64,000 bases of DNA from Polytrichum commune. Its lineage: Eukaryota; Streptophyta; Polytrichopsida; Polytrichales; Polytrichaceae. A program made the translations under genes and the position numbers. How positions within the stretch are numbered: the first letter of the stretch is position 1; every line of letters starts with the position of its first letter. The notes beneath the pieces were generated by a model. That model searched no databases, had not been told where the DNA came from, and saw only the letters and a list, made by a program, of their open reading frames with translations. The DNA lies in assembly GCA_950295325.1 (NCBI GenBank), contig OX485805.1, positions 21,439,501 through 21,503,500 on the forward strand. Direction: 5' to 3'. This document shows positions 7,006 to 50,042 of the stretch, piece by piece.

Positions 7006-8454
7006 GATATATTTTTGTTGTTACAAATCAAGATTGAATTTTGATTATTCAAAATATTAGCTTTTCTAAAATTTTGTGTAAACCAAAATTGAGATGACAT
7101 TTTAGAATAAAATGAATATGCAAATTGACATTCATTTTTGTTTCTGACAATGTCAGGTGACACTTTGGATTTGAAGTTGAACGTCAAATGAGATTTGTCA
7201 TACATACGCACTGGTCGGTGGGCATGCCTAGACACTGACGCCAAAGCTCAAATCCGTGCGTAGTGGTGGACGGTTGAGATGTTTCTGCCCTCTGTCCCTG
7301 GCTGGCATTTATGCTTCAAGCAGGGACTTGGCCAGGGACTTGGAATTCCGCACGTCACGATGAGTACTGAAAATTTTGATGATAGCCTTGCGAGTGCTGC
7401 TACTGCTGGCATTCCATTTCTTAGCTGCAGCGATTGCCGATTCAAGAATGTGTGCTTCGACATCGGCGGGGTGCTGCTTGTGCCGAACCTGGACATTGTA
7501 GGCTCGCCATTGTCACCCGCTCGGTTTAAACGAATGCTTTGAAGCCATGCGTGGCTCGAGTACCACGAGGGCAGGCTCTCGTGGAACGAAACCCGGCGTC
7601 GGCTGGCCCTCGAGATGAAGCAATTACAAGATCATCATTGTAACGAAGCCTCAGTGCAAGCGATTCTTGACGGTGCCCGAGCTTCCCTGCAGCCGGTGAC
7701 GGAGTTCGTGCGGCTTGTCAACGCATTACACGCGACGGGCAAGCTGAAGCTGTTCTGCATGACGAACGCCGCGAAGGAGGATCATGATGACATCCTCGCA
7801 CGGTTTCCGGACGTGTTTCGAAAGTTCGACCGGATCTTCTACTCGGCCGCCGTGGGCCTCCGGAAACCCAACTTCGGGTTCTTTGAGCACGCATTGCGCG
7901 AGATGGAGTGCGAGGCGTCGGAAACGGTGTTTGTGGATGACACGATCCAGAACGTGGTGGTGGCCGAGTCGTTACGGTTCACCGGTGTTCTCGTGCGCTC
8001 TCATGATGAAGAAGGCTTGAAATAGGCCGTTAATCTCGTGGTGTATCATCTTCGAAGCGTTGAGGAGAAGTGGGCGGCAGCCGCGGGATACTTGTCGGGT
8101 TTGCAAGGTTTAGGACCTGTGGTGGAGAAATGCCCCTCGCTTACTTCAGACGGCCTTCGAGTGCCGGTCCATTTTGACCACTTTCTGGTCGCGGAGCTTT
8201 TGGGGGACCCGGCCTTCCTTCCCATGCACAAAGCGCCTGTGTCCGGGACGCTCAACCATTTCCCTCCCATGGAACGACTGAATCAGAGAGACCCAAATAC
8301 CAATGCTGTGACGCATAAAAGCCTCCCCGACGACCTCGACGTCACCTCCATCGGATTGTCTGTTTTGCACAAATTCTCCAAAGTGGACATGGAGACAATC
8401 GATGCTGTCTTGGACAAAATGGTAGACACACAGAACGGCGACGGTATTTTCCAG

Positions 8455-9393
8455 GTCAGACGCATTATTAACTCTTTGATGCAACTTCATGAATTCCCTG
8501 TTCACGATTCATGCCGAGGTACCTCCAATTTGAGTTTATGAAGACATGATGGATTGTATAATCTTTGCAGATCTGATCATTAATTAATTATGTCAGGATC
8601 GGTTGGCTGCGTACGTGCACAGCATTGTGATTCACTATTGTCTCATGATCCACTGCAACTATTGTCCCAAGCAATGTAGGCAAATGAATGGGAGAGTCAG
8701 TCATGAGAAGTCAGAGCATTTCCTTTTGAGAAGAAGTGTGGTAAACTGTGATCGGCCTATGTCCAAGTCAAAAATTTAAGGTCCACGTGAACATGCTATC
8801 AGCTACCCACTTCCTACTATGGAATGAGATACCATGGTGATATTGGTTGCAACTTAATGGATCTTTGTGGCAGGTGGGTAACCGATCTTGTCTATAAGGA
8901 TAATAGCCTAGCTTGCCTCGTACCTATGCACATCATGAGCCATTTCCAATTAGATATTTTGGGTAACATCAGTCAACATCCAAGTGTTTTCAAGTCCAAC
9001 CGGTTGCATGTTGATATCTTTTGGTTTTCCTTTATTAATTTAGAGTATACTCTATAGATTCCTCTAAAATAGTTGTCAATTTGCCTTAGTCTTGAACCTG
9101 AACCGGTCATTTCTCAAACTCAACCGGTTCATCAGTGACTAGCGGTCGGATCTCTCCTAGTTCGTAGTTCCCAGTAATCAACAACACACATATTTAACAG
9201 AACTAATCTATGTGGCAATTTAATATCACGGCAGTCTTGGAGACCCGTAATATCAAGCACCTGTTAGCAATCTGAATCTGCCCCGTCCATTATTATCAGT
9301 ACGTACCATGCTCGAGTGACCAAAATTACAATGCTGTTTTTGTTGAACCAACATCATACGTATAATTTAATTCTGCTTCTTATGATCTGCCAG
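8455..9393 (+). other. Intron of the HAD/terpene-cyclase pseudogene
   Basis: The boundaries are CAG|GTCAGA and TTATGATCTGCCAG|ACT. Both sides are in phase 0 and restore the family-typical DGIFQ-TYFDSTRPRVD junction. The intron is AT-richer than the exons and holds a degraded MITE at about 8950-9175. Confidence 0.75.
8950..9175 (+). mobile_element. Degraded hAT-type MITE inside the terpene-cyclase intron
   Basis: The sequence aligns with the well-preserved MITE at 33029-33252. Shared parts are CCAAGTGTTTTCAAGTCCAA, the ACATGTTGATATCTTTTGG-like block, CTCAAACTCAACCGGTTCATC, and CTAGCGGTCGG. The terminal CTCC..GTTC end is decayed, so the exact borders and target duplication are not visible. Confidence 0.7.
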
Positions 9394-9925
9394 ACTTACT
9401 TTGACTCAACGCGGCCAAGGGTAGATGCGGTCTGTGTAGCCAATATCTGCTACCTGTTCCGCTTAGCCGGCCGAGTGGTAGATGTGAAGAAAAGCGAAGA
9501 GTTTCTCTACAATGTGCTGAAGAGCGAGGCCTATTTACGGGGCAGTCTGTACTATCCGCTGCCGGAAACGTTTCTGTGTCAGCTAGCTCGCCTCACGCAC
9601 AAATTCAAGGAGCACTTTGAGAGCATGGGCATGGCCAAGTTGTTGGCGGAGAAAGTGGGCAAGCGCGTGGGACTGCCAGGGACTGCTTTGGCTCTCGCAA
9701 TGAGACTGCTTGCTTGCGACATGTGTGGGGTGAAGAACGTCATCGACCGACAGCAATTGGCACGTCTGCAACCGACTGCAAAATGTGGATGGATTGTGGG
9801 ACGTCTGCCCCTTCTACTCTTACAATGACCCTACAAGTTGGTGGGGGAACGAGATGACGACGACGGCGTATGCTGCTGCTGTGCTCCAAGAATGCCATTT
9901 GGAAACTAAAAATCAGGTCAATTGA

Positions 9926-12900
9926 GGACTCTCCTCCTAGATGGAGGCCATCTATGATAATGTCCTTGTTAAATTCGACACTACATGGAGCGACAACCTT
10001 CTCTTCCATAGGTCGAATTTTAGAATCGTGTGGAACAATCAGGCGGTCAATGTTAACTTTAATTTCAATTTCATTAGTAATCAAATATCACATATACTTA
10101 ATTATAAGTATTTGTGATACTCCACATAATTATATGCAACTACATATAATTATATGAATAATGTAAGTGTAATAAAACTGTAATTATTTTGAGTTCAATT
10201 ATATTACATAATTCATATTACATGTAATTAAGTACATGTATTCCTCCTTGGAGTCTTGTGCTTATATAACATGTTTTCTCTTTTTGGGTCTTGTTGACCT
10301 TCTGTGTTTTTTACAATGAAATAAATTTTGCTACATTTTTCTCAACTATAAAAAATAATAGTGAATAAATAGGAGATTGCTCTAGGTCTTGAACACTTCA
10401 CAATTAGCAAGTGTTCAATCTTGTTGTCAATCATTTGCTCCAACGAAAGATGATTAGCTCCTTGTAGTTATTTGTATAAGGAAAGGAGCAGTTGGAAGTT
10501 GTAAGAGAGGGACACCTGTCAACTTGTCAATTTGGGAATTTCTGTAAACTAGGTTAATAATTTTAATAGTGGCATCGAGTTGAATTAAGCTTGAGGTGGG
10601 GCCTTTGAGAACCTGAACAATATGAAGCCTGGAGATTACTTCATATTGAAAAAGTAATCTCCGAGTTGCATATTATGTCATAGTTTTCATGTTGGATAAA
10701 TGAGAGGTACTTTTGTAATCAATGATTTCTTATCATCCATTATTACCGGCTAGAGTTTAGTGGTGTTGTAGGTAAACTTCTCAATGGGGGAGGTGAAATT
10801 GTAGTGAAGTCTTCTATAGGAATTAGCATGTGATATTCTAGATGGTGAGTTCTAATGACTCCAAAAAAGAGGTAAGGGGGGAAATTTTGCATACAAGCAT
10901 ACCTCTACACTCTCATCCCATTCAACATAAAAATTTGACCCCTATAGGTTTGTGGTTGGTTTATCTAAACTAACTAGAATTAGGCTAGTTTGAAGTTTTG
11001 GAGCTAATTATTATGTACATAATTTTTTTTTTAAAACTATTTCAAGGCTTTTATTTTGGATGAATGAAAAATATGATTGTATGCGATAACTCCCTCTCAC
11101 CACTCAATAATAGTATCAAAAACCCGAAATAAATCTTGCAAGGTCATGTTTTGGTGAATTAACCCTTAACCTTTGGGAGACTTGCCCAAGGCTTATTTTT
11201 ACTAGAGCTCCTTCATTCATGATGAGTGAGCTCACCTAGACACCACAAAGCCCAAGCAAGATTAGGTGTTTGCTTAAGCAGAGTGACCACAAAAGGCCCA
11301 CATATCTTATAGATTACCGAACTGTACTTGAGCACGAACTAATGGTCTTAAAAATCAGCTATGGTTTGTACTAATTCAAACCTTGAGGGACCAAAAGGCC
11401 CTCACATGGCTGAAGGGGGGGAGGGGTGCACCATCGTTAATACTAGACATATATGGCAAACTCAAATATAGGGTGACATTTGATTTTGGGAAGTAAAAAC
11501 ACTAAGGATATCTTAGTACCATAGGTTCCACAAAAATATATTGAGTTAAATAAAGAAGATTGAGAGTTTGGTCGCGTATGTCTTTAGTGCATCCTCAGTC
11601 ATGGAGTCACAAATGAGCCTCTACCGTTAGTTTGTTAGATTTTTCATGCCCTATTCTTCCCGAAAGTTCGTAAACATTCTAAATTTTTATGGCTTATTGA
11701 ATAAGTAATAAAGGGCCCTCTATCTCTCAAGTTGTATTTAAGTAAACTTGGACTTATTTTTGAAATCTAGACTTTTTGGTTGCTTTAATTCTATGGGCGG
11801 ATCCATTGATGCATTTCAGATATACCTAAGTTTTCTAGGAGGTGTGTGAAGCCTTGTTGATTGCTTGGATGTTACACTTATTAAAATATGACAATTAAGA
11901 AATTAGATATCTACCTTTTGATGTTAAATCCATATAAATAAATGTTGAGTAGTGAGAATATAATTTTAGAAATTATAATATTTTCATAATCAACTATGCA
12001 TCTCCTTTATATATTCTATTAAAGGATCTTACCACACAATCCTATTGTAGGATCCTATGATAGAATTCACTATGTTATGATTATGGACTTGGACTTAGTC
12101 TAGCTTTACTTGAATATGTTATTCTCACTTGTCAGCTCTTCAAATACACAGAGCCAAAGCAATTTTGAGAGAGGGCCTTTATAATGTAATCAATGGGCAA
12201 AATTAATCTAGGATGTATGTGGGCTGTGGGAAGGATGGGGTATGCAAACTTGCCTTAAAAGGTCAAAAAAACCAATGCTAGATACTTGTTTGTGGCTCCA
12301 TGAGTGGGGATGCTCTTAGATTACACTTGAGGCCTATAACCACAAAATGTAATATCAAATTTTCATGTTATAGCCTTTGGATGAGTTTCAAGGAGCCTCA
12401 CAATTTCATGGTCGTGGCCCTTAGCAGACATTTGGTCTTTTTGCTATGCCAAATGAACTTGTGATAGTTCACAAGAAAATTGGGCAATTTGCCACCTCTA
12501 GGAACATGTGGTAAAGTGGACAAAACCAAGAGAATGGAGCTCCTCTAACTACAATAGTCAATGAAATGATGTAATTTGCTATATACATCTTTATCTCCAA
12601 ATAAGGAAAGTAGATCTTAAATGGACACTTTTAGTTGTGCACCCACTTTTCGTAAGATACAAAATACGAAACCAATGCAAAATAATTAGCAAATCCAAAT
12701 TGTGCTTGGAATTATTTTCCTCATAGTTTCTGGAGCTCAAATGAATATCGTATTCATTATTAAAGCAAATTCCCTCTTTGCCTCCTCCAGAAGTTCTTCA
12801 GCAGAAGTTGCGTCCAAAATGCACACATTCCCACTCGTCCAAGCTTGCATCAGCCATCTTTGATTACAATTCATAGGAAAACTTGGGCTTCATGTCCTTA

Positions 12901-13644: not shown

Positions 13645-14415
13645 GTGGCGATGGCCCTTGGTGATGGAGCAGTAACAAAGGTCTCTAAACTTGGAGGGTG
13701 CCACAATTACAGTTTTTGCAGTTTTAAAGTGAAGAATCTCCAAGAACGTGATAATTTGTGGGACCTAGTGACGATGGATACTCAGGCTGTGATATTTGTC
13801 GGAGACGTCGACACTGGTGCACAGAGAAAGCAGTGAAAGAAGTGAGCTCTATCCATTATCAATCTAGCAGTGAAGGATTGTGAGGTACCATATATCCTAG
13901 ACATGGTGGATCCTGTTGTGTGTTGAGAAAGATTGAAGAACTTGTACGCCACCAATAATAACGCAAGACACATGCTGCATCATCGGAAGCTTACAAACCT
14001 TCAGATGGAGGAAGGCTCCTCTATTTCCACATTCCTTCAGGGAATGCAAGATCTTGTGAATCAACTTGCCGGAATTGGAGAGAAGACCTCTGACAAGGAA
14101 GTTGTGGAACACATGTCGTCCGCATTACATGAGTCCTATGAGTTGTTGGTGAGCTCAAATGCCTACCGCAACGAGATGCCTACTCACTCGAAGCTCATTT
14201 CTCTTCTTCTCAATGAGGAAATCAAGCGTGAAGTGCGCAAGGTAGAAATCCTTATGGTGCAGGCTACACCCAAGGGGTTCCAACCACAATCACACCGACA
14301 TTTCAGTGGCCAAAACAATCAGAGAGGACCAACTAGAAAGATTGGGGTGTGCCAATTCTGTGGAGTTGAAGGTCACTTTATGTGCACATGTGAACAACGT
14401 CGAGGTTCTAACTGA
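13645..14415 (+). pseudogene. copia gag region with CCHC zinc knuckle
   Basis: The frame at 13933-14415 (160 codons) contains a gag capsid-like helix-rich block (ISTFLQGMQDLVNQLAGIGE, then EEIKREVRK). Near its end is the zinc knuckle CQFCGVEGHFMCTC (about 14350-14390), in the CX2CX4HX4C arrangement of retrotransposon gag. The first part of gag (13645-13930) is in a different frame and is split by stops, so this is a remnant. Confidence 0.85.
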
Positions 14416-21800: not shown

Positions 21801-24800
21801 ATTTGCAGTTTCAAAGTCCACTGTAAGTTTCAATATTTAGAAATGGAATTTCTTAAAATAGAAACTAGAAGCTCAATTCATCAAGACATTTAGAACCACT
21901 AAACCAAAACCCGTCTTTTAAGAAGTACTAGCCTAGTAACACATCAGGCCATCACCATTGGCAAATGACGTGCACACAAAATCCACCTGAAATTAATAGT
22001 AACTCCAACTATGGTAATTTGAAGAAAACCTTGATAATCTCGAGAGCTCGGCGCAGCCTATACCAGTCGTTGCGGGCAAGGTTTTGACCAGTGATTGAGT
22101 CACCAGCATCCATTAGCATTGCTATTGCAGCATCCCAATCTCCTCCTCCACGCTGGAGTTTCTCAACTTCTTCCTCCACTGCCACAGTTACTTCTTTTGT
22201 GGCCTTTGGAGCTCCTACTTTACCATTCATGTACCTGAGCACTCAGGGAAGGCTTATATTATCATCCCATGATGATTGCACCATCTCATGATATGTATTA
22301 CATCTTGTGTAAAATGGAGGGAAACAAACAATGAAGTTCCACCACTCTTTGCAAGGTGCAGCAAAAGGACACACATAACAAGGTGTGGTCAAGATAAGTT
22401 CCAGAAGAGGCCAAGCTGTGATATGATTTAGTTTTGACAAGCTCATATTGAAGGTCCATATTGCTTGTCTCCAGGTAATAAGCTCAAGAGCATCCAGCTG
22501 CCCAACTACATGATGTGTCACCATTGACAACTAGATGTTACCATTGAGAAAGGCAGCCATTTTTTCTTGTTTTGACCAAGGAATATAATATAAAGTGGAC
22601 CCAACAGTAATCAAGTAAAATTAGTAAAAAGAAGAATTTGGACCACCCACCAGCGTAGATACATGCCTGTACCCCCAACAACAATGGGCACAGCTCCTTT
22701 AGCCAGAACAATTTCTGTAGCTGCCCTTGCATCGTCATAAAAACGTCCAGCATCATAGTCTGCACACACAAGCCAACAACTCAATTTAATATTAGGGTGG
22801 ATCGGCAGACTCGCACTCCCTCTGATCAAGGTGTTCTATCTGACCTTTCATACGTCAATGAATGCAAAAACCAGAAACCAGAAAATTATAGGCTGACAGA
22901 TGAATCAGGGAACATGGAAGAGTAACAAGGTCAGAAACCAGGACCATAACTATGGGTGCCCTGGCTCTTTGGACCGTCTGAATACATCTATTTACTAGAA
23001 TCAAGAGAATTTTAAATCTTTGACACAAGCAAATTGAAAGCCAAAAAACAGTTGTGGATATGGCTTTGCTGAAAGAGAATTGTGAGAGCCATTCCCAAGA
23101 GCAGCATACCTTCAGTTGACTCAACAATGTCGATCAAGTGATGTGGAATCCCCTGTATGTTCAATTGAAATACATCAACTTCCTGTAAAATCTGTGTTTA
23201 CAAATCCTCATAAACATCTCCTGTGCTTTCAGAATGATTGCAACTTGTGGTTTAACCCAACTAAATTACAATTAGTGAGATGCACAATCACTCTCTGTTT
23301 GGGAATTGGAGGCATCTTTTGCAAAACAATCAATGCTATTTCCAAAAAAATGGGGATGTAAACCCACCTCCCGCTCGCTCACCGGTGTCTTTGCACTCCC
23401 AACATCAAGGCCCTTATAAACCTGCAAGCATCATTAGTTTAATTCAAGGTGATTGTTCCTCGCCTGTACTTCACAAGAGATGTAACCCATCATCACAAGA
23501 TTAACGAGCACCCCTGAATGATGACACTTCAGACCCCAGCAATCCCTTCACTATCAAGCATACATAACATCACAGATTAGAATAAAGTTTTGTACATAGA
23601 CACAATCATAAACCATAAACCCTAAACCCTGACCCCAAAACAAGTCAGACCTTGCTCCATTAACAAGAGATTAAAACCCTGACAGAGTAGTCTTGCTTTA
23701 CTGAGAAGTATGCATGAGAAAGCAAATGCCTACAGCAATTACTGTGAGGTTTGCACACAACATCCATAAGGATTACGACATCCGTCGGCTTAAACCCCAC
23801 AACCCGATCCTTCCACTAAACTCTGCCGGCAGGGGAGATTTGGAATGTATAAGAATGGACACAAGAAGAATCCATGTTCTTGATTATACCCCTCTTCGAA
23901 AAGGGCGGTCTATTGATTCATCTTCCAGAGGTGAGAATATTACGTATAATGCTGAATCCAGATGCAGAATCAAAATTTGATACATAGAAGCAATTCTAAA
24001 CCCTAAACCTGAAAGAGGTCAGGCCTTGCTCCAGGAACGGCAGACGTTAAACCGTTGTAAAAAATTTACCAGAGGGATTTAAAAGGTTTGCAGAGGAATT
24101 ACGACATCCATCGGCTTAACTGCCACAATCTGACCCTTCCAGTATTTAACTCTGCCAACGGGGAAGATTTGGAATGTATGCGAATGGACCACAAGAAGAA
24201 TCTAAAATCTTGATTATACAGTTCTTCCAAAAGAACGTCCTCTAAAATCCTCTTCCGGAGGTGAGAATATTAGGTTTCATTTGGTGAATCCGGGAATAAA
24301 ACGTTGATTCATAGAAATAATCCTAAACCCTAAACCTGAAACAGGGCATACCTTGCTCCATTAACAGCAAACGCTAAACCCCGACGGAGGAACCTCGCTT
24401 TACTGAGAATTATGCAGGAGAATGCAACGACACAAGAAGAACCAATATTTGTCGAAAAGGACGTCCTGTACGTTCTTCTTCCGGATGTGAAGAAATTCAG
24501 GTTCAATGGTGGATCCGGATGCTGAAAACTGCAAAAATTCACCATTCATCTGGACATATACACTTGTTTGGAGGATTCGAGAGCTACCTGGACGGAATCA
24601 GCACTGATGATCTCGCCACCGAGACGCTTAGCCAACGCCAACGCCAGCCGAGTCTTACCCACCGCTGTTGGCCCCGCAATGATCACCACTCTTCCCTTCT
24701 CCTGATGCTGCAATTTTGCCTCGTCGGCCTCAACCTCCGCCATCGACACCTTCTTCTCCCTCCAATTCACCAAACTTTCCGTCTCTTGGCTCAATCCGCC

Positions 24801-25100
24801 TTCACTCAATATTCTATCCGTCGAATCCTCAGCTACTGCCGAGATTCTCAATTTTAGCGCTCTAATTTTCTCTCTTAACAACAACAAGGCTGTTCCGGAT
24901 TTTAGGTTGGGACAAGGTTTGGTAGACGATAAAAAATTGGAACCCGCATTCTGACCTAACGATATCACATGTAAAAGGGTCCGAGGCCTTTCAAAAAGTA
25001 TTTGCCGATGGAGTACATTAACGAGATTCAGATGTTTGGGAACCAATAACCTGCCGGTGCAACTGCACAGGCAGGCATGAGCACGTTGTGTCATCAACAT
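18821..25100 (-). CDS. IPT9: tRNA dimethylallyltransferase, IPT9 type (11 exons)
   Basis: The enzyme transfers a dimethylallyl group to A37 of tRNAs reading UNN codons; turnover of such tRNA yields cis-zeatin-type cytokinins. Minus-strand exons: 25100-24588, 23421-23368, 23152-23110, 22759-22651, 22234-22030, 21797-21632, 21132-21044, 20656-20562, 20250-20163, 19789-19656, 18953-18821. All phases match, giving 542 aa. Residues 1-140 form a basic, Ser/Leu-rich leader consistent with organelle targeting. The P-loop GPTAVGKT is at 143-150, followed by [52 protein letters not shown] and RQLTWFRN. There is no C-terminal zinc finger, which favours IPT9 over the IPT2 type. The gene appears intact. 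Exon 7 could start 18 bases upstream at another AG, adding six residues. Start 25094 is an alternative. Confidence 0.9.
19868..20080 (-). other. Open frame inside IPT9 intron 9, judged non-coding
   Basis: A 70-codon frame lies between exon 9 (ending 20163) and exon 10 (starting 19789). Including it would break the family match: exon 9 (DATQPL) and exon 10 ([12 protein letters not shown]) align directly with the continuous PLDEVLEFI-type segment of IPT9 proteins. I treat it as intron. Confidence 0.6.
21184..21570 (-). repeat. Tandem duplication (about 195 bp x 2) in and next to intron 6 of IPT9
   Basis: Two neighbouring copies share GGACTTCCATGCA, CACCATCTAT, CTCAAAAGCTCAAG-like blocks and AAGATTGATGGGT near the end. 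The second copy ends just before exon 6 (21632). It has no coding meaning. Confidence 0.7.
23590..24540 (-). repeat. Threefold degenerate tandem repeat in intron 1 of IPT9
   Basis: Three successive units of about 240-380 bp share CTAAACCCTAAACC, AGGCCTTGCTCCA-like, CATCCRTCGGCTTAA, and GGAATGTAT/CACAAGAAGAA blocks. The CTAAACCC pieces resemble the plant telomere unit but occur as short interstitial bits, once per repeat. The last unit ends about 50 bases before the exon 1 donor. Confidence 0.65.
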
Positions 25101-26816
25101 GTAACCTACTTTCCACCCTTAAAATTCGCGAGATAAGGAAAAGAATGTCTTGCTTTCAGAGGATAAGATTTATCATCATTAACCTGTTACATGAGGAACC
25201 ATGCGTGAAGACAATCCCAAGGAATATTATTATATTCTAGATTCTCGAACTTCATCAACTACTTCAGTTAGTGACCACATTCGGTGGTTCCTGTGAGGTT
25301 TTTCATAGGCCACTTCCAAAATCGACAAAGGAGTGCTTGTTTGTAAGTACCTTGAAAATGAAAATGATGAGACTCGCCAATCCTGGCAGCCTTGAAGGAC
25401 GTTAAAGACAGAAACCCAAATAACTTTTTGTCTCGGCGCATAACCTCCGATTCCCCTTAATAATGTGAAAGACTAGACATGCCTCAGACTTTGGCCCCTT
25501 TCTATGAAATTTCGGCCCCACAGACGTTGTAACAATGCTGTACTATTTGATAGTGGCTGTAAACTGGAGACCTTAGATAAGTGCAACCTACAGTTCGAAG
25601 TCTCGATCGGATCTTGCTCATATTCTGGAGCCAGACTGAAATCCTTGAACTAGAAAGAAGATATTGAAGATGGTGTTGGGGATAGCATGGAGCTGAAGGC
25701 AACTCTCCCAAAGTTTCTAAGGTCTTCCTGAAGTGCAGAGTGATCAGTATTTAATAATTACTACAATCCAGTCTCGAAGTAACCAGAATCTGCAAATCAC
25801 TTTCTAAAATCTACTGGAACCTAACTGTGTGATCGATGCTTTGGCAATTGCGCTTACAACTCCAATATGCTCTACCAAGGCCATGATAGCTAGAGTTGGG
25901 AAAGGCAACTCCTCCTTGATGCATGTAGTCTGATGCACTCTCATCATTCCCAAGCAGCATGACCCACGCTATCTCCTGTTGTCTTGCAAACTAGGTACTC
26001 TTTACTAGAAGGATGATTGCATCTATAGTACAATCAATCAACAAAAAGTCTATGGTAAAGAGAGAATTAGATTACATGTGTCACCGGCACACTGGCTAAT
26101 TAAGACAACATAATCCTGCTAGGAAAATTGGGGTAGCTTCATCGTAGGAGCTGTTTGAATGAACTATACCACCTTTAAGAGTAATTTGACGAGAATTGAC
26201 TCCAGTGAGATCGGTCATGAGGGATTATCTGTTCATTTCGTACAGTTGTTCTATGCAATGTATATGGAATAACACTTAAGACAGCACAATGTGACTCAGT
26301 TCGGGCATTTCCACATATTAATATAATGTGTATGCTGATTGATTGAAATTACCCATAACAAAAAAATAAACAAATAAACTCACCAGGTGCATACATACAA
26401 CAGGAGACCAAAAAGTCTCACTATTAAAACCTTGTTGGTACACTCTGGAAAGAGTCTTTCAAAAGAAGGTCCTGACTGAAAAGTGATGGCAATGGACGTC
26501 AGTTCGTTAGATGAATGACTAAAAAAGAAAGATTACTCATACTCACATGAAGGTAGCTCAGAGAACGCTTTCAAACTCTCAAAAGACAGCAAACTAAAGC
26601 TTCAAGAATTTGCACCCCACCATGTGACCTTCAGCAACAGGGACTGGAGCATGTATACTTCAAAACAAAATGTAACAAAATGTAACAAAAGTGTGTTTAC
26701 GAGGAAGAAAAATAGTGGATGGGGCACAATTCGACCCCTCCCATAGATTTTGATTGGTGTCAAAATAATTGGTTTACAATATACATATGTGCATGATAGC
26801 GATTGAGCAACCATCC
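25101..26816. other. Spacer between IPT9 and the membrane-protein gene
   Basis: It contains the 5' flank and presumably the promoter of IPT9 (just above 25100) and the 3' UTR of the next minus-strand gene (just below 26817). I could not recognise a specific promoter element or any coding frame. Confidence 0.5.
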
Positions 26817-27935
26817 CTACAATGGTGCCACGTGTGCCGAATCAATTGCACCTGTCTGATCCCCTGCTGCTACCACATGATGTGCGGCACGACCATCAGG
26901 TTCGGATGACTTACAAATGTAGTACAAGACACTGATCATAATGGCATCAAAGAGATACACAAAAGAGTGCATGCACACAAGTAGTGGTGCTTCCCAGTAC
27001 TTGTCATACACAATTGTTGCATCCGAGTTCCGAATGATATGAAACTCGAACAATATGTCCAGGAGCGTCCCATTCACGTTGGTAACCAGAAACAGCAGCA
27101 GGGCAACTTGCACCCTCCCTTTGAGGAGAGATTTGCTTTGCAACAGTGCCTCTCGGCCATGGAGACCTTCAAGTGCCGACACCACATACGCAAGGTTACA
27201 CATCACATTGGTATATGCAAAACCTGTAGCCAGAGCGAGTCCCACCAAGAGAGCACCTCCAAGGCCAAGGGTAATGACTAGACTGGATGATTTTCCAGTG
27301 CTGGAGGCATACCACAAGAGAATTGCAAATGCAGTAGCGAAGCTCAAATACACGGAACACGACCATGCGAACGTCTGCATCAGCCGGATCCATATCTTTT
27401 GCAAGGTCTCTGAAATCTCTGACAATTTTGGTTTCCTTCGCCCGTATGTCGATGCAACAATGTGTGCCACACCTGCCTTCAATAATGGAGAGAATAGTGC
27501 AGAAAAGGGGATGTCAACCACATTTGACATTATGATTTCTGCAAGCCTTCTGTATCCAGCCCTATGTGAATGATAATGCACTCTTTGCTCCGCCACGAGC
27601 TGCACATCCCGGACCAGCCGCTCCATAAAAGGGAACATAAGGAGCACATGTGACAGCAGAATTATAGAGAGGGGAATTGCCAAGGCAATCGCCAATGTGA
27701 AGAGGATGTCATTGTGTTTTCGCAGCAGTGTTGTGGATTCTTGAAGAATGTCCAGCACTTGTAATGAGGGGTTGGATTCAGAATACCCAGCCCACCTAGC
27801 AGTTTCCTGTTGCACCGGAGTATCCAGCAACGATTTCTTCTCCATGAAAGGTCCACTGCCATCATCAACCTGAGGCTGCTCAACAGTTTCCATCATCCCA
27901 AACCCCGGATCCCTTGCCTCATGATGCCGATCCAT
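26817..27935 (-). CDS. Plant multi-pass membrane protein, function unknown
   Basis: An uninterrupted 372-codon single-exon frame starts in a good context (GGAAGATGG). Residues 1-70 are hydrophilic. Then comes LQVLDILQESTTLLRKHNDI and the first hydrophobic segment (about 76-104). Further hydrophobic segments lie at about 140-165, 190-215, 220-245, 246-264, 280-303 and 320-346. The tail is hydrophilic. This layout and the LxILxES..LLRKH..I opening are typical of an uncharacterised plant family of intronless membrane proteins; placement in that family is from memory and not tested. No enzymatic motif is visible. The gene is in the same direction as IPT9, 1.7 kb apart, with no sign of a functional link. 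Confidence 0.85.
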   Translation of the reverse strand: MDRHHEARDPGFGMMETVEQPQVDDGSGPFMEKKSLLDTPVQQETARWAGYSESNPSLQVLDILQESTTLLRKHNDILFTLAIALAIPLSIILLSHVLLMFPFMERLVRDVQLVAEQRVHYHSHRAGYRRLAEIIMSNVVDIPFSALFSPLLKAGVAHIVASTYGRRKPKLSEISETLQKIWIRLMQTFAWSCSVYLSFATAFAILLWYASSTGKSSSLVITLGLGGALLVGLALATGFAYTNVMCNLAYVVSALEGLHGREALLQSKSLLKGRVQVALLLFLVTNVNGTLLDILFEFHIIRNSDATIVYDKYWEAPLLVCMHSFVYLFDAIMISVLYYICKSSEPDGRAAHHVVAAGDQTGAIDSAHVAPL

Positions 27936-28059
27936 CTTCCTTCACCTCTGGGCACCTCACCAATCCAACCCTGAATTCTTTCCCTCTCCCAAACTACTGC
28001 TCTCACCCTAAAGGGTATGGAAAATCTACTCTAACTGGACTCATTTCTTGCTCCAGTAT

Positions 28060-39108: not shown

Positions 39109-42100
39109 TCATGCCAAGGACTTGAGGATGAGGGGCATACCATACTTTGGCTTTGACACCATCATCAACAAAGGGTGATGCTTGTAATTTGGTGACATAA
39201 CGATTTGGAATCGCTTAAGAATCATGGACAAAATAATCTTCATTTCATTCATCGCGAATCCAATGGCGATGCATGTCTTGGACCCATAACCAAACGGTAT
39301 GAACGCTTGTGGATGGTTATACGCCTTCAAAGCAACATTTGCAAATTGTCCGGGATTGAACTTCCCAACATCTTCACCCCAATATTCCGGATCTTTGTGC
39401 ATGACTTGGCGAGCAAACTCAATGACCATACCTTTGGGGATGATTAGATCTCCCACCTCTACATCCTTTTTAGCGATCCGGGTATTGACACTCGTGACGT
39501 TCAAAAACAACCGCATAGTTTCTTTCAATATATTCTCTACCTGCAAACAAAATACACAAACTGTTCAACAACTTGTCATAAGTATGCATACTTCAAGAAA
39601 AGGAAATAAAATTCAGAGATCTACACCAGATAATAAGATATTGCATCTAGTGTCATATGTTGTTTTATGTCATCGTGGTAACTTTTCTAATGACACTATT
39701 TACGAATAAGTTTACAAGTACTCTCATCCCAACTTACTTCTAGTTCATCCACTTTTAGTTTGATAGATTGTGCATCCTAACAATTCTATAATGAAACATT
39801 GTCATGGGTGTTTGTAATTTGGATGAAAAATCACTTAGTAGTTGATAGTAATTGCAACTCTATGATGCTCAAATTTCTTACAAGGAATGACAAATAATGT
39901 TAGGTCTACATTTGGTGTTAGTGACACTACATGGGTAGTTTACAATTAATAATGGGCAAGACAAATAGAATATGTGACACTAAATACAATATTTAGTGTA
40001 TCGATGGACTATAAATTCTAATTTTCACCTCTTTTCTTCCCTGGAGGGTGGATTCTCATTGTAAACTTAAATGAAGTGTGTAGGTTACTATGAAATTAAA
40101 CTCCCTATATACGAAAATTTTGTAGAGACGTACTAGAAAATGGATTCATCTATTTATACTAAGCTTTTCAATATATCTGATAAATGCCTCCACTACATAT
40201 ACAAAATATGAATTATTAATTAAATAAGCCTATAGTACACACAAAATCCACTTTCACTTTCCAATGAGGAAGTCATTGATTTTTTTTTAATTTTTTTTTT
40301 CCCATCCATAGCATGTAACTCAACGATTGTATCAAACCAACAAAGACGAGATCATAACAAGTCAACTAGAATCCGGAGAAAAAAACTCAAGGAAGCCTAT
40401 GAGTGCTCCAAGAGCCTCTAGTATGTAGATACTAAAAACTCAAAACCCAAATGCAAACCCTATGAAGAACATACATGGTAGCCATTAAGGACTATGACTA
40501 TATGACAACAATACTCGAAACTAACACATCTATTGTCGAACAAAAGTCTCTAAACCTAAGGGGCCCCTTTTGTACATCTACCTTTACTTCAAATATCCTT
40601 TCTAGATGCACACACTAGACCCAAAAAAAAAAAAAATCTCCCTTATGTATACTTTATATGCTGATGCCTCAAATACTACCCCTTCTTACCTAACATTAGT
40701 TTGTACGTGATATGAAGAGTCCACCCCCCATGTTTGCCTCCAATACATTGTGTATGGTATTTATTGTCACTTACTATATGCATTGATACAACTATTTGTT
40801 AAAGATCTCAATTTTTACCAACAATGGTCAAATTGGTTGTTTAGACATCATAAATTCTTATCATTTTTACTTGATAAAATATTTTAACAACACAAGTATA
40901 AGAGTGCGTACTTTCAGATATTAAGTGATACTAAATACTGTAAACAATGAACTGGATCCCTCTACACAATATCCCACTAATGTTAAGAGAAAGAGAAATT
41001 TGTAGACTTGAGGTGTCACACCATCATAAAGATGACTATATATAGATGAATAAGAAACCACCAACTTCCTTTCTCTCCTCCTCTTTCCTTGTACTATTGT
41101 CCTCCTTTCTCTCTCCCTTGTTGCCTACTTTATACATGCTTGGGTCTTCCCTTGAACTCTCATATACATTAATTGTGTACATTCAAGCTCTAGCATGCTC
41201 AAAGATTATGGATTACTTTGTTTAATGGATGTTGATTATGCTCCAAGTTAATGCTGCAAGTTATTGAATTAATTGTTTCTAATTATTCACATGGAGCTCC
41301 AAAAAGTAATGGCAAGCCCACACTCACTGGTGGTGGACGGCTCCCACTAGTAGGGGCACCTCTTTGTTGGCTTTTAGCCACAATATAAAATTGAATTCAT
41401 GTTTCGGAATATCATGTCACCTAATGTTGGCCTAGTTTATGTTTGGTCGTCTTGTTATCCATCTTGGACTTGTTTGATTCCATAGTCTATGTGCACCAAG
41501 CTAGAGAGTGGAGTTTCCCCATAAATGGGGAGAACCGATGGCTAGTTACAAATGACCTGGTTGAGTTTGAAGAAGAACATGTTCTAGTTCAAGACTTAAG
41601 GAAAACTTCTGATTATTTTAGAAGAATCTAAAGAACAGACCCTCTCTATATTTCGGGCACTGGTGGCCTTGTATGTGTTTTGGCAGGAAAACAAATTTGT
41701 TCATTTGTTCCCAAATAAAGGAGAACAACAAAACAAATGAAACAAAGCCCATACATTACATACGGACACCACTTCTGCAGATATCCAACTTATGCATTCG
41801 TACGCATCAAGTCATTTGTAATAATCACTAAACTTATAAATGATCAAGGAATCATTGAGTGACTTACAATCTTCATGTCATGAAGCTTTCTTGTATCGAA
41901 CTTATCGTCATTGCCAACCACGTTCAAGATCTCTTTGCGAGCCCGGTCTTGCCACTCCGGGTACCGTGCCAGCATCAGCATTGTGTACAGGACTGTTGTT
42001 CCCACGCTGTCTTGTCCAGCGATGAATAGTAATTTGCAATTATTGAACACTGATGCAAGGTTGAAATCCAGCACATCCTCGTCCTCTCCATCCACTGCAG

Positions 42101-44924
42101 CTGTGAGCATGCGTCCAAGAAGGTCATCTCCGTAGGGACTCCCCGTCTGTGTTTGCAGGGGGGATTTGCGTCTGTTGTCAATTATTTCGTGCAACAACGT
42201 GTTGATTTTGGTGTCGAGGTATTGCCTAAGTTTGTTTTGTCTCGTAGGCAAAAACCTGCACATGAGTGGGCCAGTGTTTCAGAGACATCAGTTTTTTTGT
42301 TTAACTATGGTGTTTCATCCCAAGTTGAACATTTAGAAAACACACACACACATATATATAAATGTATAAGAAAATGAAATGTTTCATTTCATTTTCAAAA
42401 CAAATTCAATATTTTCATGGGTGTAATTCATCCCACGTTCAAGTTTCACGTAGTGTACGATTGTCAATGCCTGGACTAAATCCTCGTTGACTTAAATTTT
42501 CAGCTTCCAATTGGTGTTCGAAACGACATTTATATTGAACATAAAAATTATTCTAGCATCAGTACACCTGTATGAGATTCATTACCACCACAAACCAAAG
42601 ACTTGATCACCTGAGATATCAGTTTCTTACTGAACATGTGATTGAGTGAAGGATATGTAATTGGAAGGCAGTGAATATGTTTGTTACGTACCTGAAGCCT
42701 GGAATCCAAAATGTGGGTCGTCGATGACATTCGAAGAGAAGTTGTGAATATTGCATCTGGAGGTTATAAATCTGTTGACCCTTTTCAAACGAATCGTATC
42801 CAAAGGATGTATAGAAGAGGATTCTTCCAGATAGGGTGTGCATATCGTCCTCCACGTCAAAGTCGAGTGAGCCACCTGCTTCCGCTACCCTGTGCTCCCA
42901 GTCTCCAAGCTCCACACTCGCCGCCTTCACCATAGCTTCCACGTAGCTCTACAACAACATTGGTACAGATTTAGAGGAAGAATAATCGAGAGGAGAATCG
43001 ATGATCTTCCTCTCACCCCTAAGCCCCTCGTTTATTCATATGGAGGAAGTCTCTTCAAACACCGTGTCAAGAATCGAGAACACCAATGACTTGGGTTGTT
43101 CACCTGGGGTGACAACTCTCTCCTTTTGAATAGTTGTTTCTAACTCAATTGTAATCATTCTAATGAGTTGATGGTTTGTTATTTCACGATTTAAGAGAGG
43201 CACCATGGTTGGAAAGCTAAGGGCATTGAGAATGATCCATTGATACACTTTGTGTCTAGACTAGAAAAGGTTTGTACTTCCAAATGTGATTTTTAGAACC
43301 AACTAGAAGAATTGTTTTAAAACTCAGGTAACCTTCCAAACCCCATAGATATTGAATTTCACTTCTAAGAAAGTACCATTTAAGACCCCTCTACCTTAGA
43401 TATTCTTAGATCCAGAGGTGATGATTTCAGTGCTAAATTCACCTTGAGTGTGTCGTGGTGGAAGAAAGGATTCAGTGTCTGCCGCTCTATGGCCCACTTG
43501 GGACCAAACAAATGGAACACTCCATTGCCAGCAATCAGGGAGGTGAGAACATTCTCCTTTTCCGATCTCATGAAATCTTCATGTTTCGCTCCAAACACTA
43601 TTTTCGCAATCTCTGGCTCTTTCACCACTAGCCGCGTTTCGGAGCCAGTCCAATACACAAAGCGCTTCCCTGCACGCAATCATCATCATGTCACTAGAGT
43701 CACAAAAAATTAGCATTGAATGCAAATATGTGATTCAGGTACGAATAGCATTAAATGATTAAATCCACTTTCATAACGTGAGTCGGGAGCACGTTGTATG
43801 AGGGTTGCCCTATTTGCACACGATTAGATATTGCTTCTGATTGGTTTCCAGAGCATCGACATTTCAATAAGGTGCAAGGTAGACAGCACCTTATCCAATA
43901 GATTCATGTCAAAGCCCTCTTTCCAAGCACGTTGCTGGTCTTTGTGAAATAACAAATCATTAGTCCATTAGATTCAACATTGGAAGTGATTCAAAAACTT
44001 ATGTTCAAAAGGAGCGAGTTGGCATCCCCGAAAAAAATAGCTTCTAATGAGTTTAAAACTTGACAGTTGGGAATTGTAAACCTCTCCAATTCAAAGTCCA
44101 CAAACGGTATCAATGGACTCCTCTCTCTCTCTCTCTCTTCAAGCACACCGCTCCTCTTTATGAATTAACAAATCACCAAATCACTAGCATATTCAGCATC
44201 AGATATGATCCACAAACAACTATTGCCTGAGAGTTGCCGACACGGACAATTTGCCTCTCATAAGTTCTAAAAACGGCAACTGCTGAAAGTGTGAACCTTC
44301 TCTAGTAATCTAGAACCCGAAATGGTATCAATGCAATTCTCTCATCTGCACATGCTCTTCCTGAGCCTCACATTGCTCCTCTTTGTGAAGAAATTACAGT
44401 ATATTGATTTATTAGATGCAACAATTTTAGAAGTGAGTTAAAAACAACTGACATTCAAGAGGGGAGAGTTTCCAATCCTGGAAAAATATGCTTCAAAGAA
44501 GTTTTAAAACCGGAAACTGTTGAAGGTGTAAACCTGAATTCTTTCATTTCAGAGTCTGCACATTAAAGGTATCAAGGGGTTCCTCTCAATGTCAGCTAAT
44601 TGATTGTGTACCATATTTGGGGAAATACAAGGCGTAATGCGGCGTCATGGTGGGTGAGTAGTGCCCAAACTCGTCGTCAAGAGGCAGAGCCTCAGGCAAT
44701 GATTGTGCATATGTGGCGACCTCGGGTCTGTTTCCGACAAGAAATCGGAAGGGCGGTCCTCCCACGCCTTGCTTTGCCATGAACCGTTTCAACCTCAACG
44801 GCTCCCATAAAACATTCCGCAACCACGTGAGCAATCTCACGAGTATCGCACTTGCTGCAAGAGTCAGTGCCACCACCACAATTGCATTCCTCACTTCAAA
44901 CTCGAGATGTCCCATCTTCGCCAT
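39109..44924 (-). CDS. Cytochrome P450, CYP72 clan (5 exons)
   Basis: Minus-strand exons 44924-44612, 43669-43443, 42948-42692, 42255-41868 and 39540-39109 join in phase with GT-AG borders to give 538 aa without stops. The N-terminus is a membrane anchor (VVVALTLAASAILVRLL) followed by the RFMAKQGVGGPPFRFLVGN hinge typical of the CYP72 clan. Other marks are C-helix WAIER, I-helix FIAGQDSVGTT and ExxR as ETMR. The PERF-like motif reads NPGQF and the haem loop reads FGYGSKTCIA. The cysteine ligand is present, but the usual PERF Arg is Gln, the haem-propionate Arg is Lys and the Gly two after Cys is Ala. Five exons fit the clan. It would act at the ER as a mono-oxygenase; the substrate is unknown. 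It could be a diverged active enzyme or an early pseudogene. Confidence 0.88.
41490..41640 (-). mobile_element. Degraded hAT-type MITE in P450 intron 4
   Basis: It contains GGTTGAGTTTGAAGAAGAAC and CTAGTTCAAGACTTAAGGAA, the reverse-oriented core of the 33029-33252 family, next to GAACCGATGGCTAGTTAC. Ends are not preserved. Confidence 0.65.
43900..44570 (-). repeat. Threefold tandem repeat (about 220 bp) in P450 intron 1
   Basis: Three consecutive degenerate units share TTTRTGAA..AACAAATC-like, TTAGATKCAACA and CTGAAAGTGTGAACC / GTTGAAGGTGTAAACC blocks. Units run at about 43900-44120, 44120-44340 and 44340-44570. Confidence 0.6.
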
Positions 44925-45219
44925 GACTCACAATGGAATTGTTCAAATTGGTGATCAAATTTATAATACCAGCCCAACGCAGTGTTATACTAAACTATCC
45001 GCCTATAACCACAATAAATATGATATTTAACCTAACTTCTGTCCCAAAATGAAAGGTAGATATAAATGCCGGCTCCCTTGGAAGACGGCATGAATAAAGA
45101 TTCTCTATGGCGGTGAGCTACTGCCCCCTTTCGGAGCTTTTTGGGTGATGACCTCAGCCATGCATCTTTGACATCTATGACAATTGTTTTCCGTACGGAA
45201 TGTATGACAATGTATGACT

Positions 45220-47836: not shown

Positions 47837-50042
47837 TTAGATATCCGTATCCTCAAAATTAGAAAACATAGTTGAACTTACTGAACAAGATGCATCACTT
47901 CCCAAAGACACATAAAGTGAAGGATTAACATATAAAAACCGGCATTCAGTTTCACTTTTCCACAAAGGAATTGCCTCTTCAATAATATTATCAAAGTTCT
48001 CATTTGGTCTCTCTAAAGCAATTCTAAGCATAGCTTTCAAATTTTTACTTCTAAGTCTATTTCTCATTCGTGTTTTTATTAAATTTTGGACACTAAACGC
48101 CCTTTCACAAGTAGATGTTGATACACATTGTACTCTAGCCAAATCAGCAAGGATAAGCAAATTAGGATATCGGGTTTGCAAAGAATGATTCCATGTGATC
48201 ATGCCCCATAAATCTCTACAAGTCTTATCTCTCCATTCAGTGGTGGCTTACAATTTGAAAGCTAGAAATTCACGCTTACAAGCCATCACATCAACGAAGG
48301 GGAGAAATTTTAAACCTTCTTGGGAGCGATCATATCCATAGTGTGCTAGTAATATCTCCAATTCAACCACCTCCCAATTTTGGAGGCCTATTTGCTTTGA
48401 AGGCATATTAGTAGGATTTAAGATTTTAAAACATGAAATAAGATCATTGTCTACAAATCTAGCATCCAAGCCTGCACAAACAGCTTCCGCAAAGGCATGT
48501 TAGAATTTAAGTGCTTTCTCAAGGTCATCTCCTAATCTAGACCGGTTTATTTCAAAACCGTGATACATTTTTTCATGAATTTCACTTGAAAGCTTTCGAA
48601 GATGACCCCCAAAAGGGCCATATTCGGAAATGACATGATAGCCAGTGTTTTCGTTAAATGTGGAAGTATTCAAATCAGTTTGCTTAACAATAAACAACAT
48701 TCTAATTTGTGCTATCTCGGTTCTAACAATACTACCAATAGTTGTAACATCCACAAATTTGTTTTGAAAAATCTTTGATAACAATGCTAAGGAATGTAAG
48801 ATATCAGCTAGAAAATACAATATATATATGTATTTAAATTGTTTTAACTTGGCAAAAACAACCTTCGTTTGACCAAGACTTTTTTGTCTTTCATATTACG
48901 AAAAAAACACAAAATAAACTCTAACGAATCACATATGGTAGTCACAGCTTGCCATCTACTAAGCCATCGTATCTTATGATACCGTTTCATAATTTTTTTA
49001 GCATAAAAAAATATTGTTTGCAAGGTTATGAGTGCATGTTTACGCTTACTTGACATATTAAAGTATGAAGCAATTGCATTCAAAATATTATCAACCTTAT
49101 CGGATATTATCTTGCAATCTGATGCTTTAGATGCATCAAGTGCAGCTAGATTAGTCTTATGAGCAACACAATGACAAGACAAAATGAATGGATTTAGGTT
49201 GTTTTTCAATTTTGTTGCTACTCCACCATGAGATCCCACCATGGTGCTTGCACCATCACTGCCAAATGCCACACACTTGTATAAATTAAGTTCCCAAATC
49301 TTTAAGTGATTGACTAAACATTCAAAAATAATACTAGCATCTTTTTTCACACCCTCAATCTCTAACAAACCTAAAAAAAACAGTCAAAGGCATACCTTCC
49401 TTTATAATTGTAGCAAATACAACAAGATGACCGGTAATACTTATGTCCGTAGATTCATCAATCATGATATCATAGAAAGGAGAATTTCGAATCCTATATA
49501 TGATTTTTTTTATGACATTAGACATATATTCAATTAAATCAGCACATGATTTTTCATCATGATACAAAGATGTAATGATAGGAGCCTTTACACTAGCAAG
49601 CAATGAACACAAAGGAGGAAATTTTGCATAAAGGAGGGATTGCTTTCCTATAAAGTAGGCAGCACGAAACAATGATGACAATGATTCATCACATGCACGT
49701 TGCCCTTATTTGATCGCCTTCTCCAACACTTTGTAAATCCAACAAATTTTTTTATGTTCACTAGAACATGCATGATCATGAAATGCACTTACCTTTAGAT
49801 TTTTGGATCCCTCTTTGGCATATAGCGAACGTCCACCCTTCTCCTTGCAGATTTTACAACACACTCTTCCCGAATCGGGAGAAAAATCTAGCCGATTGGT
49901 CTTTCCATATACCTTGTGCATTTGAAACTTGAGAAGAGGGTAAATCATCCAATGCACATGTTTCAGATGCTAAATCATCTGTGTCAATATTTCGAGGAGT
50001 GGTCAAAAAATGTTCCTTTAAGGACCTTTGTCGTTTTGCCAT
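47837..50042 (-). pseudogene. hAT transposase with N-terminal zinc finger, broken
   Basis: It starts MAKRQRSLKEHF at 50042. Next come a zinc-finger-like CCKICKEKGG..HDHACSSEHKK (about 49870-49740), YDIMIDESTDISITGHL (first catalytic Asp), FGSDGASTMVGSHGGVA (second Asp region), and SCHCVAHKTNLAALD. The C-terminal dimerisation domain has CERAFSVQNLIKTRMRNRL, with the expected Glu. The overall plan resembles the KIAA1586/zinc finger 862 type of hAT protein. Lesions include in-frame stops near 49706, 48500 and 48248 and frameshifts near 49880, 49370 (poly-A run) and 48830. It cannot encode an active enzyme as it stands. Confidence 0.88.

Follow-up and report, generated by a model that had tools for sequence, protein, structure and literature searches.

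A probable land-plant branch of HAD-terpene cyclase fusions and its dead copy in the moss Polytrichum commune

The moss Polytrichum commune carries, within a stretch of 64,000 nucleotides of contig OX485805.1 (positions 21,439,501 to 21,503,500; the whole stretch is called the window), a decayed gene in which a HAD domain is fused to a class II terpene cyclase (TC) domain. Together with two intact-looking paralogues and with relatives in other plants, it quite probably belongs to a land-plant branch of HAD-TC-beta cyclases that would make drimane-type sesquiterpenes from farnesyl diphosphate, the locus in the window being a dead moss copy. Enzymes of this kind are known, and it is the plant branch that looks new. 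No description of a plant HAD-type terpene cyclase was found in the open-licence literature, as represented by titles, abstract starts and passages, and the phylogeny legend in the accessible part of a 2026 study of HAD-TC enzymes (PMC13244436) covers bacterial and fungal members only.

A preliminary description of the locus had proposed a fusion related to the fungal drim-8-ene-11-yl pyrophosphate synthase AstC and to the marine bacterial drimenol synthases, and the homology searches bear this out, at scores far beyond chance. With the window reading, phmmer against the PDB returns AstC at 4.5e-46, in a single alignment over residues 55-560, and the marine bacterial enzymes 9mhs at 1.2e-45 and AsDMS (9m7d), the drimenol synthase of Aquimarina spongiae, at 7.9e-45, again over both domains. 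Pfam finds only HAD in the three pieces of the window copy (PF00702, 5.8e-11) and no terpene synthase family at E<=1, hence no canonical plant terpene synthase (TPS) or MTPSL domain. The description had also named two outcomes that would speak against it, namely best matches to ordinary plant HAD proteins with an unrelated frame downstream, and a cyclase part without likeness to AstC or drimenol-synthase proteins; neither occurred.

Translation agrees with the description in placing D61 (in FDIGGV), T162, K196 and D220-D221 ahead of the DLDVTS motif in one frame from 7279, with two in-frame stops. Two other points need correction. The similarity to the intact-looking paralogues sets in at 7342 and not at 7279; because this is about 21 bases inside the paralogue coding sequence, the start and upstream part of the window copy are lost. 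Nor do the C-terminal blocks continue in the same frame: exon 1 is left at GIFQ/GTCAGA (8454/8455), the reading re-enters after CTGCCAG at 9394 with TYFDSTRPRVDA (predicted splice), and an insertion near 9770-9790 pushes the last 47 residues into another frame. The window copy is 92% identical to paralogue B across 538 residues, but with two stops, a frameshift and the 5' loss it has no intact coding sequence. It is a pseudogene of the HAD-TC family; the claim for the family rests on the paralogues and relatives. The features are as follows (window coordinates unless a contig is named).

7342-9925, + strand: dead HAD-TC copy of the window, matching AstC and AsDMS over both domains
7342..8454, + strand: exon 1, 5' truncated, with the HAD domain and the beginning of the class II cyclase domain
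7459..7461, + strand: codon of the HAD nucleophile Asp (equivalent of AsDMS D43)
7540-7542 and 8023-8025, + strand: in-frame stops in exon 1
8329..8349, + strand: DDLDVTS class II motif, with Asp codons 8332-8334 and 8338-8340 corresponding to AsDMS D331 and D333
8455..9393, + strand: phase-0 intron of 939 bases, CAG/GTCAGA ... CTGCCAG/ACT
9394..9925, + strand: exon 2, the remaining cyclase domain, with the Tyr equivalent to AsDMS Y427 at about 9550-9555
near 9770-9790, + strand: frameshifting insertion in exon 2
9923-9925, + strand: terminal stop
9939..10223, + strand: 3' flank that copies B and C have too, 86% identical
C3:21566043-21568514, same strand as the window copy: paralogue B, about 119 kb downstream
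C3:15235552-15238027, opposite strand: paralogue C, 6.2 Mb from the window copy

Intact-looking paralogues, of the kind the description had suggested looking for, do exist. A search of the moss genome (407.8 Mb in 64 contigs) gave seven exon matches that make up three gene copies, all on one contig of 59 Mb (C3). With predicted splicing, B and C each encode the HAD and TC-beta fusion in two exons and 551 codons, around introns of 942 (B) and 946 (C) bases. Their proteins are 96% identical and they have 3.6 kb in common at 96.9%, which makes them duplicates. The ratio of nonsynonymous to synonymous substitution rates (dN/dS) between them is 0.44 (p 0.017 against neutrality) and falls to 0.22 in the HAD half; between the window copy and B it is 0.49 for exon 1 (p 0.008). 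B and C probably encode working enzymes.

Are the residues needed for catalysis still there? In an alignment of 26 sequences, read with AsDMS numbering, all seven HAD residues checked (D43, G45, T138, N139, K171, D195 and D196) are found in B, C and the window copy, and so are the class II residues D331, D333 and Y427; passages of PMC12365925 give the roles of these positions in AsDMS, where residue 138 is a Ser. The residue after the second Asp of the class II motif is Val in the window copy and in copy C, and Thr in copy B. Two fern-type proteins have lost HAD residues and retain those of the cyclase: positions 43/45/196 read E/A/C in P0038 and D/M/S in the Adiantum protein (P0008). Their phosphatase function is consequently doubtful, which recalls AstC, an enzyme without phosphatase activity according to passages of PMC13244436.

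AstC (PDB 22tz, 22ty, 22ua) resembles the moss proteins in its HAD and TC-beta fusion and its DxDT motif, whereas the moss copies, unlike AstC as described there, retain the checked HAD catalytic residues. AsDMS (PDB 9m7d, 9m7e, 9m7f; also 9mhs, 9mlo) has the same fusion and matching catalytic residues apart from S138, but it falls in a distant clade and differs at the selectivity positions 319/509/511/518, with Y/F/A/F against F/Y/Y/W in the moss. Two fungal HAD-TC enzymes, the albicanol synthase AncC and the albicanoyl monophosphate synthase AacA, which are compared here by description only, both cyclise and dephosphorylate according to passages of PMC12365925 and PMC13244436. AncC, given as F/Y/F/A in the former, is partly like the moss, which has W where AncC has A. 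As the moss residues differ from those of both AsDMS and AncC, the exact drimane is not predictable. As for the fold, the predicted structure of P0006, a plant relative 50% identical to B, contains both the HAD Rossmann fold and the alpha6-alpha6 barrel, with AsDMS as its best structure match (AstC is absent from the VIA-align and Foldseek rows, which carries no weight); the whole-chain root-mean-square deviation of 18-19 probably stems from a different domain placement in the prediction.

From these likenesses we infer the substrate, the drimane product and the dephosphorylation for the moss HAD-TC, and a course of reaction can be proposed. The C-terminal alpha-alpha barrel would bind farnesyl diphosphate, and the second Asp of the DLD[TV]T motif, aided by the first Asp and by the Tyr in the G[ST]xYY block, would protonate its terminal double bond. 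A class II cascade would then close the trans-decalin, and the resulting drimane-type diphosphate (drimenyl or albicanyl) would be handed on to the HAD domain at the N-terminus, whose Asp, Lys, Asn and acidic Mg ligands would strip one or both phosphates, the output being a monophosphate or an alcohol.

The presence of the family in a plant genome is supported by the three copies on the 59 Mb contig and by relatives in the liverwort Riccia sorocarpa and the fern Adiantum nelumboides. A protein search with the window copy gave 10 matches: P0001-P0005 (85-91% identity), which reach or enter the same intron, P0006 (49%), Riccia sorocarpa (46%), P0009 (35%), Adiantum nelumboides (31%) and P0010, which has HAD families only. 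A profile search with the cyclase domain over 8000 scored candidates gave 137 matches, nearly all with the precomputed domain PF28380; among the best 120 that were listed are many fungal proteins, a few bacterial ones, P0038 and another protein from Riccia. Among the 10 protein-search matches and the best 120 of 137 profile matches listed, many of which carry no species name, none is labelled as Physcomitrium, Ceratodon, Sphagnum, Marchantia or a seed plant, although absences read from such a selection out of 8000 candidates are weak.

A plasmid scan gave one match, an ordinary HAD protein; the plant/fungal profile gave 31 pattern matches in the contig collection, and a viral contig scan 12, with no match confirmed in either. 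The bacterial profile gave 55 pattern matches in the contig collection and 14 confirmed loci, of which two (L020, L023) have no usable frame and seven entered the tree. HAD-TC genes are found in Aquimarina, Flavivirga and one Rhodobacteraceae and, through the cyclase-domain profile, in Pendulispora. Five further proteins (L019, L021, L022, P0148 and P0153) have a cyclase domain of the same family and no HAD domain, possibly an unfused type; three of them are myxobacterial loci from the bacterial-profile scan.

How, then, are the plant proteins related to the others? For the trees, the 89 rows in the fungal length range (440-560 aa) were thinned at about 58% identity to 31, a set that includes species-unassigned rows such as P0040. 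In a tree of 54 rows, the 14 plant rows group together in one clade (100/99), in which the fern-type rows branch first, then Riccia, then P0006/P0092 and then the moss. The fungal rows adjoin it (32 rows including Pendulispora, 99/96), and neither group includes the Aquimarina-type and TC-only bacterial rows. A second tree of 41 of these rows, from which 13 (TC-only, two long fungal, partial and window rows) were omitted, agrees (plants 100/99, fungi 99/93). On it, the approximately unbiased (AU) test, applied to groups picked after inspection of the first tree, rejects a union of plants with basidiomycetes (p 0.024). The HAD-TC protein of the myxobacterium Pendulispora rubella (P0124) is nested inside the basidiomycetes in both trees, which looks like a transfer from fungus to bacterium.

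The intron position offers indirect evidence. Five open reading frames (ORFs; P0009, P0121, P0122, P0126 and P0140) contain an insert that starts with V, immediately behind the residue that otherwise adjoins the TYFD/TFFTDF block, and ends with Q directly before that block, as an unspliced phase-0 intron GT...CAG at the exact moss site would produce. In P0113, P0136, P0138, P0141 and P0146 the Q at the block is preceded by different residues, or by no more than two residues and a start; Suillus weaverae P0084 shows three additional residues at this place. The site was read by eye from peptides in the rows where the pattern was found, and those without a species name were assigned to fungi by similarity. 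The moss intron position seems to be the same as in these fungal-type ORFs, and so exact an agreement is unlikely to be coincidental. The description had offered a microbial entry or an ancient gene lost elsewhere; the two combined fit best, with a bacterial source disfavoured. Probably the gene was exchanged with fungi a single time, early on, and many lineages lost it afterwards. The related genes in the liverwort and the fern suggest a very long presence of HAD-TC genes in plants.

Several observations weigh against this picture. Copy C has DLDVT and not DLDTT. For the cyclase half alone, dN/dS between B and C is 0.61, and for exon 2 of the window copy it is 0.57 and 0.77, values given without a significance test. 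The B and C introns are 97.8% identical against about 97.5% for the coding sequence (41 differences in 1653 sites), and the introns of the window copy and B 93.5%; with the intron conserved equally to the coding sequence, the protein is under no strong selection and constraint is at most moderate. P0006 and P0092 cross the intron site without an intron. As for the trees, the first drew a program warning that two long bacterial branches meet, a union of plants with ascomycetes is not rejected by the AU test on the second (p 0.28), and both are midpoint-rooted, so that the direction of transfer cannot be read from them.

Could the same fold serve another substrate or product, so that the moss enzyme is no drimane synthase? 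The pocket at positions 319/509/511/518, unlike that of AsDMS or AncC, and the long plant branch (0.77 and 0.93 changes per column in the 54-row and 41-row trees) leave some room for this, but the acid, its partner Asp and the Tyr are retained, and the characterised members give drimane skeletons in the available passages of PMC13244436 and PMC12365925; we hold it to be rather unlikely. Several separate and later fungal transfers of the same family into the moss, liverwort and fern lineages would accord with the patchy distribution among the listed matches and with the unrejected ascomycete union. The single plant clade in both trees, and a branching order in keeping with plant phylogeny, given a root on the side of fungi and bacteria, make them unlikely. 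A bacterial source, for example among the bacteria with marine drimenol synthases, is highly improbable in spite of the HAD-TC genes in Aquimarina, Flavivirga, a Rhodobacteraceae and Pendulispora, as the Aquimarina-type enzymes are distant, Pendulispora lies among the basidiomycetes, and the moss intron matches the apparent site in fungal-type ORFs. An ordinary plant HAD protein followed by an unrelated frame, or fungal contamination of the assembly, can be dismissed: Pfam does see HAD families only, but the former is ruled out by the one end-to-end alignment to AstC, and the latter by three copies on one 59 Mb contig and relatives in other plants, P0001-P0005 reaching or entering the same intron.

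With a single early exchange as the preferred reading, a fuller history may be sketched, which is tentative and which we are slightly inclined to doubt as a whole. An intron-bearing HAD-TC gene would have been exchanged once between fungi and the land-plant stem and retained patchily among liverworts, mosses and ferns, where it would make their drimanes; ferns would then have disabled the phosphatase half, in parallel to AstC-type fungi. Liverworts, mosses and ferns all contain drimanes, and these compounds have long been cited as a chemical link between liverworts and ferns. With a plant branch whose active sites are complete, this old chemotaxonomic puzzle becomes a gene question open to direct test. 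The branch also offers new candidate bifunctional cyclases and adds a gene family that fungi and plants may have exchanged during the land-plant radiation or earlier.

If this history is true, plants would have a route to drimanes unrelated to the class I drimenol synthases known from flowering plants. The description had attributed plant drimanes to other enzyme families, and the passages of PMC13244436 name for plants only class I enzymes, the drimenol synthases VoTPS3 and PhDS, unlike the moss HAD-TC, for which the same kind of product is expected. The MTPSL enzymes, described in passages of PMC13364417 as microbe-like terpene enzymes of non-seed plants, share that character with the moss HAD-TC and form a separate family.

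The surroundings of B and C give no support to a gene cluster: in ORFs read by eye, without a family scan, over 12-15 kb on either side, no terpene or P450 gene was recognised; retroelement and low-complexity frames predominate, and several frames have no assignment. A genome scan for PF01397 had no match, but its controls were silent too, and nothing is concluded from it. Elsewhere in the genome there are five matches to PF19086, which we take to be the MTPSL (microbial-type terpene synthase) family, at C1:41793010, C1:41809654, C1:73887362, C2:67768411 and C4:11021211.

The rest of the window holds the following.

39112-44927, - strand: pieces of a cytochrome P450 gene (PF00067 in three of five exon-like frames), between the window copy (A) and B and about 29 kb from the former
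26820-27941, - strand: single-exon membrane protein
24549-25118, - strand: frame matching isopentenyl transferase (PF01745, 2.1e-05)
13927-14412, + strand: Copia-type gag remnant (PF14223)
47840-48247, - strand: hAT transposase C-terminal remnant (PF05699)

The P450 could oxidise a drimane, and no link to the HAD-TC genes is claimed. The membrane protein marks the genome as that of a moss, probably none of the three genera among its named matches: it has 25 matches, one of them 97% identical, and all five that carry a species name belong to mosses (Physcomitrium 58-63%, Ceratodon 62%, Sphagnum balticum 58%).
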